From Candidatus Tumulicola sp. (GTDB lineage Bacteria > Vulcanimicrobiota > Vulcanimicrobiia > Eremiobacterales > Eremiobacteraceae), in NCBI GenBank assembly GCA_035601835.1, contig DATNNM010000003.1, forward strand, positions 1 to 64,000: a DNA stretch of 64,000 nucleotides. Reading direction: 5' to 3'. Below are positions 58,090 through 63,607 of this stretch, one piece after another. Position 1 is the first letter of the stretch; the number at the start of each line of letters is the position of its first letter. Position numbers and translations under genes: made by a program. Below the pieces are notes generated by a model, which worked only from the letters and a program-made list of their open reading frames with translations, was not told the DNA's origin and did not search any database.

Positions 58090-58878
58090 GTGCTGACCGC
58101 GGTCGCGCTAGCGGGCGGCGTTCTCGAACCCGACTTCCGCGGCGCCGGTTACGACGTTCCCAATAAGGCGTACCTGCGCATAGGTGAAGAGACGATGCTT
58201 GAGCGCGTCTTGTCAGCGCTGCGCGGCGCGTCCTCGGTCCGTCGCATCCGATGCGTGACGCCGCCTGAAGCGTACGATGCGGAATTCGGCGAGCTTGGCT
58301 GGGAGCTGTGCGACGAGGTCGTCGAGCCGGGCGCGGGCTTGATCGACAGCTTGCTCGCCGGCTTTGCGGGTCTTGCGGACGATGAGCTCGTCCTCGTCGC
58401 TGCGACCGACATCCCGCTCGTCACGTCTAGCGCGATCGACGCGTTTGCCGAATCCGCGCTCGCGAAGGATTGCGACGTCGGCTACGGCTTCGTGAGCCGG
58501 GCATCGCACGAGCGAAAATATCCGCAGGTACGCCATACCTGGGTGCGGCTGCGCGAAGGCGTCTTTTGCGGTGCAGGGGTGAGCTTGCTTCGAGCCGGCT
58601 CGGCGTCGCGCATCGCAGCGATTCTGCAAAAGGTCGTGGCGTATCGCAAGTCGCCGTTGCGGCTTGCATCGCTGTTCTCTGTGGGACTCGTGCTGAAGGT
58701 GGCTCTGGGCTACGCGCACGTCGCCGACATCGAGCGCCGTGCGGACGAACTGACCGGGCTGCGCTGCCGCGGCGTGCTCTCGGATGACCCGGAGCTAGGC
58801 GTGAACGTCGACGAACTGTCCGACTTGCGCGCAGTCGAGGCTATCCTGGCCGGTTCCGATCAGCCCGCCCACCGATGA
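58090..58878 (+). CDS. MobA-like NTP transferase
   Basis: 262 residues from a GTG. It begins LTAVALAGG, the nucleotide-binding start of this fold, then VPNKAYLRIGEETMLERVLSAL, and has LVAATDIPLVT with the metal-binding Asp pattern. The usual SxRMGxDK loop is changed to EPDFRGAGYDVPNK. That makes MobA-type guanylyl transfer uncertain; a sugar-phosphate or cofactor nucleotidyltransferase is possible. ATGA overlap with the next gene. Confidence 0.75.
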   Translation: MLTAVALAGGVLEPDFRGAGYDVPNKAYLRIGEETMLERVLSALRGASSVRRIRCVTPPEAYDAEFGELGWELCDEVVEPGAGLIDSLLAGFAGLADDELVLVAATDIPLVTSSAIDAFAESALAKDCDVGYGFVSRASHERKYPQVRHTWVRLREGVFCGAGVSLLRAGSASRIAAILQKVVAYRKSPLRLASLFSVGLVLKVALGYAHVADIERRADELTGLRCRGVLSDDPELGVNVDELSDLRAVEAILAGSDQPAHR

Positions 58879-59429
58879 AGACCCGGCCTGCTTCCAAGCG
58901 ATTTACAATAGCGGTGTGGGTCGCCATTATCGTTTTTCTTTCGGCCATCTATCTGCCCATTTTGCTTGTTTTTTCGCCGTTTGGAGATCAACGGTTAACC
59001 AAGGGTTTAGCCCTTTACTACATGATCATCTTGGTCATGTATTTCACCTATAGGGTCGTCACCGCGATTGTCTTCTCGGCAGCCGGCTTGGTTGGCTACA
59101 CGCGCGATGTTCGGAAGTTTCGAGCATTGGGGGAAGTGCCGCCCACACGCACCGCCGATCAACGGTCCGACGCTCAACTCGACCCAGGTCACGTCCAGTC
59201 GGCGCTTCGAGACCTCAATGTGGTTTGTGGCACGTGTCCTCGTTGGGTCAGTGAGGGCGTCGATGCGGTACTGGCACTTGCACCTGGTCCAGACCGTCGT
59301 GAAAAGCGTGCCGAGCTTCTTTCGCGACTCTACTGGCAGGCCGGGTTTTCTTCGGACCCTTTTGAGGTCCGCAGGGCATACAACCGCTTGCGCATCGCGA
59401 TCAACCCAAACGTGGACTCGCCGGACTAA
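58875..59429 (+). CDS. Membrane protein of unknown function
   Basis: 184 residues. Two membrane helices (FTIAVWVAIIVFLSAIYLPI and LALYYMIILVMYFTYRVVTA) lie near the N-terminus, and the C-terminal 80 residues are soluble, with VCGTCPRWVSEGVDAVLALA and PFEVRRAYNRLRIAINP. The CxxC (CGTC) may bind a metal. Its last codons and its TAA stop lie inside a REP palindrome (59420-59444). No family recognised. Confidence 0.65.
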   Translation: MKTRPASKRFTIAVWVAIIVFLSAIYLPILLVFSPFGDQRLTKGLALYYMIILVMYFTYRVVTAIVFSAAGLVGYTRDVRKFRALGEVPPTRTADQRSDAQLDPGHVQSALRDLNVVCGTCPRWVSEGVDAVLALAPGPDRREKRAELLSRLYWQAGFSSDPFEVRRAYNRLRIAINPNVDSPD

Positions 59430-59444
59430 AGTCCGGCATACCAC
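59420..59444 (-). repeat. REP-like palindrome, GTGG head, TTTA loop
   Basis: Minus strand GTGGTAT followed by GCCGGAC-TTTA-GTCCGGC, a 7-bp perfect stem. It matches the element at 745-769. The TAA stop of the preceding gene falls inside the loop. Confidence 0.72.
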
Positions 59445-59472
59445 ATTAGCCTAGGACCGCCTAGCGAGTCCC

Positions 59473-59478
59473 TATAAT
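59473..59478 (+). promoter_or_regulatory. Likely -10 box of the mutase operon
   Basis: A perfect TATAAT 65 bp before the mutase ATG. It is the only good -10 between the REP element and the gene. No strong -35 is seen. Between it and the start is a GGGAC, CGTGC-rich leader, then AAGGAG at 59523 as ribosome site. I see no cobalamin riboswitch: the space is too short. Confidence 0.5.
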
Positions 59479-59537
59479 AGCTGGGACCCGGGCACGTCGC
59501 CCCGTGCTCGTTTCAAAAGGGTCAAGGAGTTCGGCTG

Positions 59538-61223
59538 ATGAGCGCACAGACTCTCAAGCACGTTCCCCTTTCAGACGCGACGCGCGCTTGGGAGCAGATG
59601 ACGCTGCTCCCCTTCATCGAAAAGCGTCCGGAGCGACGACAAGTCTTCCGCTCCTTCAGCGGCGTTGAGATGAAGCGCCTGTATACGCCTGAGGACCTCG
59701 GCGATCACGACTACCTCGCAGATGCGGGCTTCCCGGGTCAGTATCCGTTCACGCGTGGTCCATATCCCACGATGTATCGCGCGCAGCCGTGGACGATGCG
59801 TCAGATCGCAGGCTTCGGCACCGCTGAAGATACCAACGCGCGTTTCCGCTACCTCATCGCGCAGGGCCAGACGGGCATCTCGACCGACTTCGACATGCCC
59901 ACCCTCATGGGCTACGACAGCGACGACCCGCTCAGCGAGGGCGAAGTGGGGCGCGAGGGCGTCGCCGTCGACACCGTCGACGATGTGCTCGAGCTCTACC
60001 GCGATATCGACCTCGAGAAGATCTCCGTCTCGCTGACCATCAATCCGACCGCTTGGATCCTTCTCGCGATGTATCTCGTGGCTGCGCAAGAGCGCGGCTT
60101 CGATTGGAAAAAACTTTCAGGCACGACGCAAAACGACATCATCAAGGAGTACGTCTCGCAAAAGGAATGGGTCTACCCGCCCAAGCCCGCGATCCGCATC
60201 GTGCGCGACACGATCGTGTTCGGCGCACGCCACCTCCCTCACTATAATCCCGTGAACATCAGCGGCTACCACACGCGCGAGGCCGGCAGCACCGCCGTCC
60301 AAGAGGTCGCGTTCACGCTTGCGGCCGGGATCGCATACGTCGAGGAAGTGCTCAAACTGGGCATCGACGTCGACAGCTTCGCGCCACGCCTATCGTTCTA
60401 TTTCGTCTCGCAGATCGATTTCTTAGAAGAGGTCGCGAAGTTCCGCGCAGCGCGGCGCCTTTGGGCGCGCATCATGAAGGATAGATTCGGAGCGAAAAGA
60501 TCCGAATCCATGAGGTTGCGCTTTCACTGCCAAACCGCGGGCGCCTCGTGCACGGCGCGCGAACCGCTGAACAACATCTCGCGCACGGCGCTCGAGGCGC
60601 TCGCGGCCGTGCTCGGCGGGGCGCAATCGTTGCACACCAACGGCTACGATGAGGCCCTATCCATTCCCAGCGAGGCTGCGATGAAGATCGCGCTGCGCAC
60701 GCAGCAGATCATCGCGGAAGAGAGCGGCGTCGTCGGCACCATCGATCCGCTTGCCGGATCCTATGCCGTCGAGCGGCTGACTTCAGACATCGAACGCGCC
60801 TGCCGCGATTATTTCGAGGAGATCGATCGGCGCGGCGGTGTGGTCGCTTGCCTCGACGCCAATTTCTTCCAGACCGAAGTGGCCAACGCCGCATACGAGC
60901 TGTATGGGCGAAAGGAGCGGCACGAATTCGAGTTCGTCGGCGTGACGAAGTATCGCGACGATAGCCCTAGCCCCGCGCTCGAAGTGCACCGCGTCGACGA
61001 GTCCGCGGCGAATCGTCAGCTGCAGCGGTTGGCCGCCACCAAAAAGCGGCGCCGGCAGCCGGCGGTCGACGCGGCGCTCGCAGAGCTCGTGCGCGTCGCC
61101 GCCACGGATGAGAACATCATGCCGGCGACGATCGACGCTGTGAGGGCACGTGCCAGCATCGGCGAGATCGTCCGTGCGTTAAAGCCGCTTTTCGGCGTCT
61201 ATGTCGAGAAGCCGGTCTTCTGA
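59538..61223 (+). CDS. hcmA: B12-dependent acyl-CoA mutase large subunit, probably 2-hydroxyisobutyryl-CoA mutase
   Basis: 561 residues. The (alpha/beta)8 barrel of the methylmalonyl-CoA mutase family is clear: YPFTRGPYPTMY, QPWTMRQIAGFGTAEDTN, TGISTDFDMPTLMGYDSDDP, RLRFHCQTAG, SLHTNGYDEALSIPSEAA. Residue 90 is Ile (RQIAGF); the equivalent is Tyr in methylmalonyl-CoA mutase and Phe in isobutyryl-CoA mutase, while Ile90 is the hallmark of 2-hydroxyisobutyryl-CoA mutase. The length (about 562) also fits. The B12-binding domain is on the separate small subunit. It starts at an ATG with AAGGAG upstream. The mutase family is certain; the HCM assignment is strong. Confidence 0.88.
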   Translation: MSAQTLKHVPLSDATRAWEQMTLLPFIEKRPERRQVFRSFSGVEMKRLYTPEDLGDHDYLADAGFPGQYPFTRGPYPTMYRAQPWTMRQIAGFGTAEDTNARFRYLIAQGQTGISTDFDMPTLMGYDSDDPLSEGEVGREGVAVDTVDDVLELYRDIDLEKISVSLTINPTAWILLAMYLVAAQERGFDWKKLSGTTQNDIIKEYVSQKEWVYPPKPAIRIVRDTIVFGARHLPHYNPVNISGYHTREAGSTAVQEVAFTLAAGIAYVEEVLKLGIDVDSFAPRLSFYFVSQIDFLEEVAKFRAARRLWARIMKDRFGAKRSESMRLRFHCQTAGASCTAREPLNNISRTALEALAAVLGGAQSLHTNGYDEALSIPSEAAMKIALRTQQIIAEESGVVGTIDPLAGSYAVERLTSDIERACRDYFEEIDRRGGVVACLDANFFQTEVANAAYELYGRKERHEFEFVGVTKYRDDSPSPALEVHRVDESAANRQLQRLAATKKRRRQPAVDAALAELVRVAATDENIMPATIDAVRARASIGEIVRALKPLFGVYVEKPVF

Positions 61224-61226
61224 CCG

Positions 61227-61640
61227 ATGCCGATCAGAGTTCTCGTCGCCAAGCCCGGACTTGACGGTCATGACCGCGGCGCGCGCATCGTGGCCCGCGC
61301 GCTGCGCGATGCTGGCATGGAAGTCATCTACACGGGGCTCCACCAGACGCCGGAGATGATCGTCAACGCGGCTATGCAGGAAGACGTCGACGTCATCGGC
61401 GTCAGCATCCTGTCCGGTGCGCATATGACCGTGTTCCCCAAAGTGATGGGCCTTCTCAAGGAGCATGGCGCGGACGACATGATCGTGATCGGCGGCGGCG
61501 TCATCCAAGCCGAGGACATGCCGAAACTCCAGGCGCTGGGCGTGCGCGCGCTCTTCGACGCAGAAGCCACGACGCAGGATCTCGTCGACGGCATCACGCG
61601 ATTGGTCGCCGAGCGAGAGTCGACACGGGAGAAGACGTAA
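61227..61640 (+). CDS. hcmB: B12-binding small subunit of the acyl-CoA mutase
   Basis: 137 residues, the usual size of HcmB/IcmB. It begins IRVLVAKPGLDGHDRGAR, in which His15 in DGHDRG is the lower cobalt ligand, and has VIGVSILSGAHM and VIGGGVIQAEDM, all typical of this B12 domain. It lies 3 bp after the large subunit gene, so the two are co-produced and form the active mutase. An acidic residue that contacts the substrate hydroxyl in HcmB cannot be placed safely without an alignment. Confidence 0.9.
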   Translation: MPIRVLVAKPGLDGHDRGARIVARALRDAGMEVIYTGLHQTPEMIVNAAMQEDVDVIGVSILSGAHMTVFPKVMGLLKEHGADDMIVIGGGVIQAEDMPKLQALGVRALFDAEATTQDLVDGITRLVAERESTREKT

Positions 61641-61644
61641 GAAC

Positions 61645-63054
61645 GTGACCGAAGCGGGATCCGCGCCGCTAACCGCGGCCTGGCCGCCCGTCTACGACTC
61701 CGGCTATCGTCCTCAAGCCAAGGAGCCTTATTGGGATCGGCGCCGAGAGACGATGTCGGCAGACGAGCGCGCATCGGTCGTCCTTTCGAAAATCCAGGCC
61801 GTTATGCGCTGGGCGTACGATCGAGCCCCCTTCTATCGCCGCCGTTGGTCCGAAGCCGGGTTGCAGCCGGGCGACATCCGCTCGCTCGCCGACTTTGAGC
61901 GCGTGCCGACGATCAACAAGGCCGATCTGCGCGCTGACCAGTCGGAGCACCCGCCCTACGGTTCGTATCTCTGCATCGAACCGCTTGAGATCGCGCGCAT
62001 CCACGGCACCTCTGGGACGAGCGGCCGGCCGACAGCATTCGCCTGGACGGCGGATGATATGGACCGCATCGCGGAGGCGCATGCTCGCATCATGTGGAGT
62101 TTCGGTCTGCGGCCGAGCGACACGGTGTTCGTCGGCTCGATCTTCTCGCTCTACGTCGGGTCCTGGGGGACGTTGCTCGGCGCGGAGCGCCTGGGTGCGG
62201 CGGTGTTTCCGTTCGGGGCCGGCGTCGCAGGCCAAACATCGCAGGCGATCCAGTGGATGAGGCAGCTGCGTCCGACCGCATTCTACGGAACACCGTCCTA
62301 TGCGCTGCGGTTGGCGGAGGTCGCTCGCGCTGAAGGCATCGACCCGCGCTCGCTCGGCTTGCGCATCATGTTCTTCTCAGGTGAACCGGGAGCCGGAATC
62401 CCGTCCATGAAGCGCTTGATCGAATCGACGTTCGGCGCGAGTTGCATCGACTCGGGCAGCATGGGTGAAGCGACGCCTTGGATGAACATCGCCGAATGCG
62501 CTCAGCGGACCGGCATGCATCTTTGGCAGGATCTCGTCTACACGGAATTGCTCGATCCGCGAACCTGGCAACGCGTGCCATACGGCGGCACGGGTACGCC
62601 CGTCTATACCCAACTCGAGCGGCGTTGCCAACCGATGATCCGGCTCGTCTCCGGTGATCTCGCCGAATGGACCGACGCGCCGTGCGCGTGCGGCCGGACC
62701 TACCCGCGTTTTCCGCGGGGCATCATCGGCCGGATCGACGACATGCTCACGATCCGAGGCGAAAATGTCTATCCGAGCGCCATCGAGGATGTGCTGCGCA
62801 GCTTCACCGGGCTCGGATCAGAGTTCGAGATCGTCGTCACGCGCGAAAACCAACTCGATGATCTGCGCGTTCGCGTCGAAACCACGCCAATCGGCGGTGC
62901 GCCCGACGATCTGGCGGGACGCGTAACCGCGGCGCTGCGCCGGGTGCTTGGCATCCGGCCGACGGTCGAGCTCTGCGAACCGAATTCACTCAAACGAACA
63001 GACCTGAAATCGCGCCGCGTCCGCGATGAACGTCGGCTCAATACACGGACCTAA
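61645..63054 (+). CDS. Acyl-CoA ligase of the phenylacetate-CoA ligase group, probably 2-hydroxyisobutyrate-CoA ligase
   Basis: 469 residues from a GTG. ANL-superfamily features: RIHGTSGTSGRPTAFAWT (AMP/P-loop), FYGTPSYALRLAE, FFSGEPGAG, DSGSMGEA, GIIGRIDDMLTIRGENVYPS (C-terminal hinge) and a late Lys in SLKRTDLKSRR. It is in the PaaK branch rather than acetyl-CoA synthetases. Placed 4 bp after the mutase small subunit, it probably makes the mutase substrate, as in Aquincola where a 2-hydroxyisobutyrate ligase is encoded with HcmA/HcmB. Phenylacetate or another hydroxyacid remains possible. Confidence 0.82.
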   Translation: MTEAGSAPLTAAWPPVYDSGYRPQAKEPYWDRRRETMSADERASVVLSKIQAVMRWAYDRAPFYRRRWSEAGLQPGDIRSLADFERVPTINKADLRADQSEHPPYGSYLCIEPLEIARIHGTSGTSGRPTAFAWTADDMDRIAEAHARIMWSFGLRPSDTVFVGSIFSLYVGSWGTLLGAERLGAAVFPFGAGVAGQTSQAIQWMRQLRPTAFYGTPSYALRLAEVARAEGIDPRSLGLRIMFFSGEPGAGIPSMKRLIESTFGASCIDSGSMGEATPWMNIAECAQRTGMHLWQDLVYTELLDPRTWQRVPYGGTGTPVYTQLERRCQPMIRLVSGDLAEWTDAPCACGRTYPRFPRGIIGRIDDMLTIRGENVYPSAIEDVLRSFTGLGSEFEIVVTRENQLDDLRVRVETTPIGGAPDDLAGRVTAALRRVLGIRPTVELCEPNSLKRTDLKSRRVRDERRLNTRT

Positions 63055-63068
63055 GGGTCCGTGGCTAC
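63044..63068 (-). repeat. REP-like palindrome, GTAG head
   Basis: Minus strand GTAGC followed by CACGGACC-CTTA-GGTCCGTG, an 8-bp stem. It overlaps both neighbours: the ligase TAA is in the loop, and the TAG of the head is the stop codon of the gamma carbonic anhydrase gene. Confidence 0.7.
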
Positions 63069-63607
63069 ACTAACGTCTCGTCGACGATGCCGATGCCTTG
63101 CTCGCGATAGTCCTTTGAAAGCCGGACGTACGCGTCGGCCGCGATCTCGATCCAGTGAGCCGCGCTGCCTTCGAGTTTCTTCTTCACCTTGGCCGGCGCG
63201 CCGGCAGCCAAACATGCCGGGGGTATTTCTTGGTCCTCCAGCACGACCGAGCCCGCGGCGATCAACGCACGTTCACCGATCTTGGCGCGGTCGAGGACGA
63301 CCGCGTTCATGCCGATGAGCGCACCGCGCCCGACATGGCAGGCTTCCAAGATAGCGCCGTGCCCGATCGTGACATGGTCTTCGATCACGGTGTCGTGACC
63401 TTCGTACACGTGGATGACGACATTATCCTGAACCGAGGTCTTCGCGCCGATGCGGATGCCGGCTTCATCGCCGCGCAGCACGGCGCCGAACCAGACGCTC
63501 GCGCCATCGCCGATCTCCACGTCGCCGATCAAGGCGGCCGTGGGCGCGATGAACGCGCCCTTGCCGATCTTGGGCGTCTTGCCGTTGAACGTCAGAATGC
63601 ACGCCAT
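63065..63607 (-). CDS. Gamma carbonic anhydrase-family protein
   Basis: 180 residues. A left-handed beta helix of hexapeptide repeats (for example VQDNVVIHVYEGHDTVIEDH and IGMNAVVLDRAKIGERALI) with the three metal-binding histidines in VIHVYEG, VTIGHGA and EACHVG. This is the YrdA/PaaY type; some hydrate CO2, others act as thioesterases. It converges with the ligase gene. Its stop is formed by a REP head. Confidence 0.88.
   Translation of the reverse strand: MACILTFNGKTPKIGKGAFIAPTAALIGDVEIGDGASVWFGAVLRGDEAGIRIGAKTSVQDNVVIHVYEGHDTVIEDHVTIGHGAILEACHVGRGALIGMNAVVLDRAKIGERALIAAGSVVLEDQEIPPACLAAGAPAKVKKKLEGSAAHWIEIAADAYVRLSKDYREQGIGIVDETLV

Follow-up and report, generated by a model that had tools for sequence, protein, structure and literature searches.

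A probable 2-hydroxyisobutyrate utilisation cassette, apparently mobile and lacking its dedicated chaperone gene, in an uncultured bacterium of the phylum Eremiobacterota

Known systems and the locus in the window

The closest described counterparts of the locus presented here are the HcmAB-Hcl systems of Aquincola tertiaricarbonis L108 and of plasmid RPME01 of Methylibium petroleiphilum PM1, whose pathway and operon make-up have been described previously (PMC7176365). The product of the HCM type of 2-hydroxyisobutyryl-CoA mutase is (S)-3-hydroxybutyryl-CoA (PMC7176365), and the slow turnover of one known HCM restricts its use in synthetic pathways (PMC11599936). In PM1 the genes follow the order hcmB-hcl-meaH-hcmA, with a GntR gene upstream and genes for an adenosyltransferase, a lyase and a 3HB-CoA dehydrogenase downstream. 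Other mutases with which the locus must be compared are the (R)-3-hydroxybutyryl-CoA mutases (RCM), such as RcmAB of Kyrpidia tusciae, the isobutyryl-CoA mutases (ICM) and the methylmalonyl-CoA mutases (MCM).

The window (the whole stretch of 64,000 nucleotides that was analysed) comes from an uncultured soil-type bacterium of the phylum Eremiobacterota, whose genome (2.57 Mb, 18 contigs) is 98% complete. It encodes a large subunit, a B12 subunit and a ligase homologous to those of the Aquincola and PM1 systems, the two mutase subunits being separate in both cases. In contrast to PM1, the window locus consists of hcmA-hcmB-hcl alone, without meaH and without a linked regulator. Its features are the following:

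59538-61223, plus strand: hcmA, 561 aa, predicted HCM large subunit with Ile90, Asp117 and Gln208 (ORF, profile, PDB search, tree)
61227-61640, plus strand: hcmB, 137 aa, predicted B12-binding small subunit (ORF, profile, PDB search)
61645-63054, plus strand: hcl, 469 aa, GTG start, predicted 2-hydroxyisobutyrate-CoA ligase of the PaaK branch (ORF, profile, PDB search)
59524-59529, plus strand: Shine-Dalgarno-like AAGGAG before hcmA (sequence)
63044-63063, no strand assigned: hairpin, 8-bp perfect, over the hcl stop codon (-15.9 kcal/mol, z -4.65)

The three genes are arranged head to tail, with gaps of 3 bp (hcmA-hcmB) and 4 bp (hcmB-hcl), and the ORF listing agrees to the base with the lengths, gaps and coordinates given by an earlier, sequence-only reading of this DNA. 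HcmA matches the MM_CoA_mutase profile (671 bits) and HcmB the B12-binding profile (89 bits), the latter carrying the DxHxxG motif as LDGHDRG on a subunit separate from HcmA. The match of Hcl to AMP-binding/AMP-binding_C_2 bears out its earlier attribution to the PaaK branch. The hairpin, situated between the convergent hcl and gamma-carbonic-anhydrase-like genes, is possibly the transcript end; no T-tract was found at this hairpin, and a consensus terminator scan gave no match there. Similarly, a consensus scan did not find a sigma-70 promoter for the operon.

Assignment of the mutase and the ligase

Searches against solved structures place all three proteins with the 2-hydroxyisobutyrate system. 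The best PDB match of HcmA is the HCM large subunit 4r3u_A (700 bits, with 58% identity over 543 aa, so that a crystal structure of this similarity covers the protein), as against 462 bits for methylmalonyl-CoA mutase, and HcmB scores highest with the HCM small subunit 4r3u_C (160 bits). The solved protein closest to Hcl is the 2-HIB-CoA synthetase 6hdw (558 bits, residues 13-465), far above the score of about 250 bits obtained with phenylacetate-CoA ligase (PaaK).

Homologues were collected from GTDB genomes, from 61 and 149 related genomes, and from plasmids, and a tree of 114 rows was reconstructed by a quick search with SH-aLRT as the only support; the MCM/ICM diversity is under-sampled in this tree because its rows were collected by similarity to the window protein. 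HCM forms one clade of 56 rows (SH-aLRT 100), which holds 4r3u, the HcmA of the PM1 plasmid and the window HcmA. The sequence-only reading had singled out a position inside MCM or ICM as the outcome that would speak against it, and the window protein branches in neither. The host's remaining two large subunits fall outside the HCM clade, one (on contig C11) in an ICM-like group and the other (on contig C10) in the MCM group.

The diagnostic residues follow the same division. Residue 90 of HcmA is Ile in QPWTMRQIAGFGTAEDTN, as seen in the ORF translation and in the alignment, and the rule given in the sequence-only reading, Tyr in MCM, Phe in ICM and Ile in HCM, is recovered in these groups. 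Two further positions, which that reading had not used, are 117 and 208, which we take to have roles in stereospecificity and in carboxylate binding, respectively; their pattern across the sequences supports these roles. At 90/117/208 the window protein shows I-D-Q, identical to 4r3u and to the Aquincola and PM1 enzymes. This triplet is found in 54 rows including 4r3u, together with one L-D-Q inside the same HCM clade, whereas MCM rows show Y-A-R and ICM-like rows F-A-Q (one V-A-Q). Therefore, HcmA has neither the MCM pattern (Tyr90 with Arg208) nor the ICM pattern (Phe90 with Ala117), although it shares Gln208 and a separate B12 domain with the ICM-like proteins.

Using hcl as bait in class Bacilli, we found RCM-type mutases beside hcl in two genomes, with the triplet I-V-S, 44-45% identity to the window HcmA and a position outside the HCM clade; the genome used for the comparison with RCM is presumably that of K. 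tusciae DSM 2912. RcmAB of K. tusciae resembles the window proteins in being a B12 mutase with Ile90 that adjoins hcl, and differs from them in Val117, Ser208, 45% identity and its location in the tree. Given that RCM-type proteins likewise have Ile90 and lie beside hcl (PMC7176365), Ile90 alone is insufficient for an HCM assignment. Nevertheless, the window HcmA carries Asp117 and Gln208 instead of the Val117/Ser208 pattern of the Bacilli proteins, which makes an (R)-3-hydroxybutyryl-CoA mutase extremely improbable here. By its residues and its branching, the window mutase is of HCM type and not RCM, and an enzyme specific for (S)-3-hydroxybutyryl-CoA is expected from I-D-Q rather than Y-A-R, F-A-Q or I-V-S. 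The tree, the PDB scores and the residues Asp117 and Gln208 thus support the earlier reading of an HCM operon, and its identity as a 2-hydroxyisobutyryl-CoA mutase with its ligase is well supported, with activity, direction and stereochemistry as predictions from sequence.

Distribution of HCM in Eremiobacterota and beyond

At the strict threshold, HCM was detected in 22 of the 149 phylum genomes searched, as two lineages. The main Eremiobacterota clade (13 rows, including the window, G004 and others, with 69-91% identity to the window HcmA) is sister to the 43 other HCM rows sampled, and the named sequences most similar to HcmA come from bog and palsa MAGs assigned to Candidatus Eremiobacterota (Vulcanimicrobiota). 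The second group, nested among alphaproteobacterial HCMs and with a proteobacterial gene order, seems to stem from an independent transfer. A larger tree places I-D-Q proteins of haloarchaea, whose genes are linked to a ligase gene, immediately outside all bacterial HCMs.

The separation of the main clade from the clade of characterised enzymes, together with the 58% identity, would be consistent with a mutase-ligase pair of HCM fold acting on a related short 2-hydroxy acid (e.g., 2-hydroxy-2-methylbutyrate) instead of 2-hydroxyisobutyrate (2-HIBA). However, the three compared active-site positions are all identical to those of characterised HCM, and among solved ligases 2-HIB-CoA synthetase is by far the nearest to Hcl, so we regard such a substrate as unlikely and retain 2-HIBA.

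The enzyme kind is already known; the novelty lies in the phylum, in the order of the genes and in the lack of a dedicated chaperone. A search of the open-access literature gave no report of HCM in Eremiobacterota; within this scope, 2-HIBA metabolism is extended to a further phylum, and Eremiobacterota add a set of HCM enzymes that is separate and diverges deeply.

Two other gene clusters were observed on plasmids. The haloarchaeal plasmids L183 and L184 (Halomarina, Natrinema zhouii) carry clusters of the order TPP lyase-like - hcl - mutase (I-D-Q) - B12 domain - MeaB. A plasmid of Sinorhizobium sp. C101 (L187:1485-7033) encodes a V-D-Q mutase with a class III aminotransferase, an enoyl-CoA hydratase and a non-HCL ligase, and the substrate of this mutase possibly differs from that of HCM.

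Probable insertion site of the cassette

In seven family members, the corresponding site lacks hcm and keeps the order PilT - IspE - nucleotidyltransferase - gamma-carbonic-anhydrase-like - RNase E/G. In the window, hcmA-hcmB-hcl is flanked by the nucleotidyltransferase side, where there is one additional ORF, and by the carbonic-anhydrase-like gene:

59440-63032, plus strand: DNA cassette shared with G004 at 84.4% identity (blastn), in another chromosomal place there (synteny)
58875-59429, plus strand: ORF of 184 aa between the nucleotidyltransferase gene and hcmA, G+C 0.557, lower than its neighbours
63065-63607, minus strand: gamma-carbonic-anhydrase-like gene, conserved in the family as a housekeeping neighbour

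Among 14 family genomes, HCM is found elsewhere only in G004, on a different contig and with different neighbours, and the site corresponding to that of the window is free of hcm in G004. The DNA common to both comprises the operon and about 100 bases upstream. Insertion in one or both of these lineages is the simplest reading, the alternative being loss from the other family members combined with rearrangement, and the cassette is apparently horizontally mobile. Its G+C hardly differs from the surroundings, so that any donor probably had a similar base composition. The extra ORF had no match in Pfam/NCBIfam searches, and no homologue of it was seen at the empty sites of the relatives.

The carbonic-anhydrase-like gene was considered as a pathway member and rejected, since it has the same housekeeping neighbours in family members whose sites lack hcm. 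Separately, many Proteobacteria (loci L135, L136, L186 and others) encode, downstream of hcmA, a gamma-carbonic-anhydrase-like protein of 340-460 aa with two domains in tandem.

Proposed pathway and the missing chaperone

We consider it very probable that the window holds a horizontally mobile, stripped-down cassette for 2-HIBA utilisation, with the reactions, their direction and stereochemistry, and chaperone sharing predicted as follows. Hcl would activate 2-HIBA with ATP and CoA, and HcmA and HcmB with adenosylcobalamin would then catalyse a radical 1,2-shift of the thioester group, giving (S)-3-hydroxybutyryl-CoA. A chromosomal 3-hydroxyacyl-CoA dehydrogenase and a thiolase would convert the latter to acetyl-CoA; the host genome has four genes for each of these enzymes, one pair being adjacent on C11, which should in principle suffice for this conversion.

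The operon could also run in reverse, from 3-hydroxybutyryl-CoA to 2-hydroxyisobutyryl-CoA or 2-HIBA, e.g., to supply the precursor of lysine 2-hydroxyisobutyrylation. In its favour, the reaction of the mutase can proceed both ways (PMC7176365), and no 2-HIBA-forming genes (2-methylpropane-1,2-diol dehydrogenases, lyase) were recognised near the window operon. In contrast, the presence of an ATP-dependent ligase in the operon argues for the activation of free 2-HIBA, and neither an acyltransferase nor a thioesterase is linked to the operon, which renders the reverse direction very unlikely and utilisation of 2-HIBA the preferred reading.

The sequence-only reading had noted that meaH, the gene of the MeaB-like chaperone, is absent from the window, and indeed no dedicated meaH was found in the whole host genome (98% complete). 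The whole-genome search adds a single MeaB on another contig (C11), which clusters with the MeaB proteins of family members lacking HCM. Most HCM loci have meaH inside the operon, and in the main Eremiobacterota clade it is usually located, where present, between hcmA and hcmB. As G004, G037 and some other HCM loci likewise have no meaH near hcmA, this gene is not a defining feature of the family. The dedicated G-protein chaperone MeaH may have been lost or never acquired; from its absence we infer that the single housekeeping MeaB, which would also serve the ICM-like and MCM paralogues, loads and protects HCM, or that HCM does without a chaperone. The locus would thus offer a natural case of a mutase obliged to work without a dedicated chaperone.

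The host genome has three mutase large subunits against two recognised B12-binding domains of this kind. The ICM-like paralogue on C11 (Phe90, Ala117, Gln208) is accompanied by a separate B12 domain, 60% identical to HcmB. The MCM paralogue on C10, of the same family, differs from the window HCM by Tyr90, Ala117, Arg208 and its neighbours: its large-subunit gene (C10:68479-70023; L119:8468-10045) adjoins those of a biotin carboxylase and a methylmalonyl-CoA epimerase. This epimerase is fused to a Clp-N-like domain, and the C10 MCM has no B12 subunit of its own.

2-Hydroxyacyl-CoA lyase in related clusters

In four related genomes (G014, G042, G039 and G022), the genes hcmA, hcmB and hcl are joined by one for a 2-hydroxyacyl-CoA lyase, and a gene for a GntR-type regulator adjoins them. 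Against the NCBIfam profile NF058623 (2-hydroxyacyl-CoA lyase), whose cut-off is 600 bits, these lyases reach 816-997 bits. The lyases inside or beside Eremiobacterota hcm operons are located as follows:

L127:12012-13754, lyase (NF058623)
L124:11652-13367, lyase (NF058623)
L128:12648-14360, lyase (NF058623)
L129:3938-5647, lyase (NF058623)

Among solved structures, the G014 lyase matches the 2-hydroxyacyl-CoA lyase 7pt1 best (679 bits); the residues aligned with Q128 and E493 (PMC8760513) are kept, a numbering offset of 11 fitting both. Lyases above the cut-off also occur near hcm genes in L013, L021, L023, L030, L034, L037 and the PM1 plasmid, while the lyase-like proteins of L011, L019 and the haloarchaeal L184 score below it. 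At the strict threshold, the host genome has no 2-hydroxyacyl-CoA lyase.

The mutase and lyase routes with hcl have been treated as alternatives, the only organism combining them being an acetone degrader that lacks hcl (PMC7176365), and a 2026 paper considers that in Mycolicibacterium ELW1 a lyase encoded close to the mutase may provide a minor route. A search of the open-access literature gave no report of a combined mutase-lyase cluster from Eremiobacterota. Since the relatives keep the lyase in their hcm cluster, Eremiobacterota HCM might belong to a natural acetone/formyl-CoA route, with 2-hydroxyisobutyryl-CoA as the hub between acetone plus formyl-CoA and 3-hydroxybutyryl-CoA, and the window cassette would be the part carried off without lyase and chaperone. 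We put this forward tentatively, as a possibility that is less probable than not; the lyase-containing clusters of the relatives bear on the natural origin of 2-HIBA or its CoA ester.

A 986-aa protein beside the lyase clusters was considered as a formate dehydrogenase and rejected, being a PAS/GAF/SpoIIE regulator. In a 1243-aa fusion in L124, the mutase domain alone was recognised, and the long N-terminal part overlaps a GntR gene on the opposite strand and is probably not real. Finally, on plasmid RPME01 of M. petroleiphilum PM1, a classic MTBE degrader, the lyase gene (L135:10577-12337, 742 bits) lies just downstream of the hcm operon, and its product is annotated merely as a TPP-binding protein.
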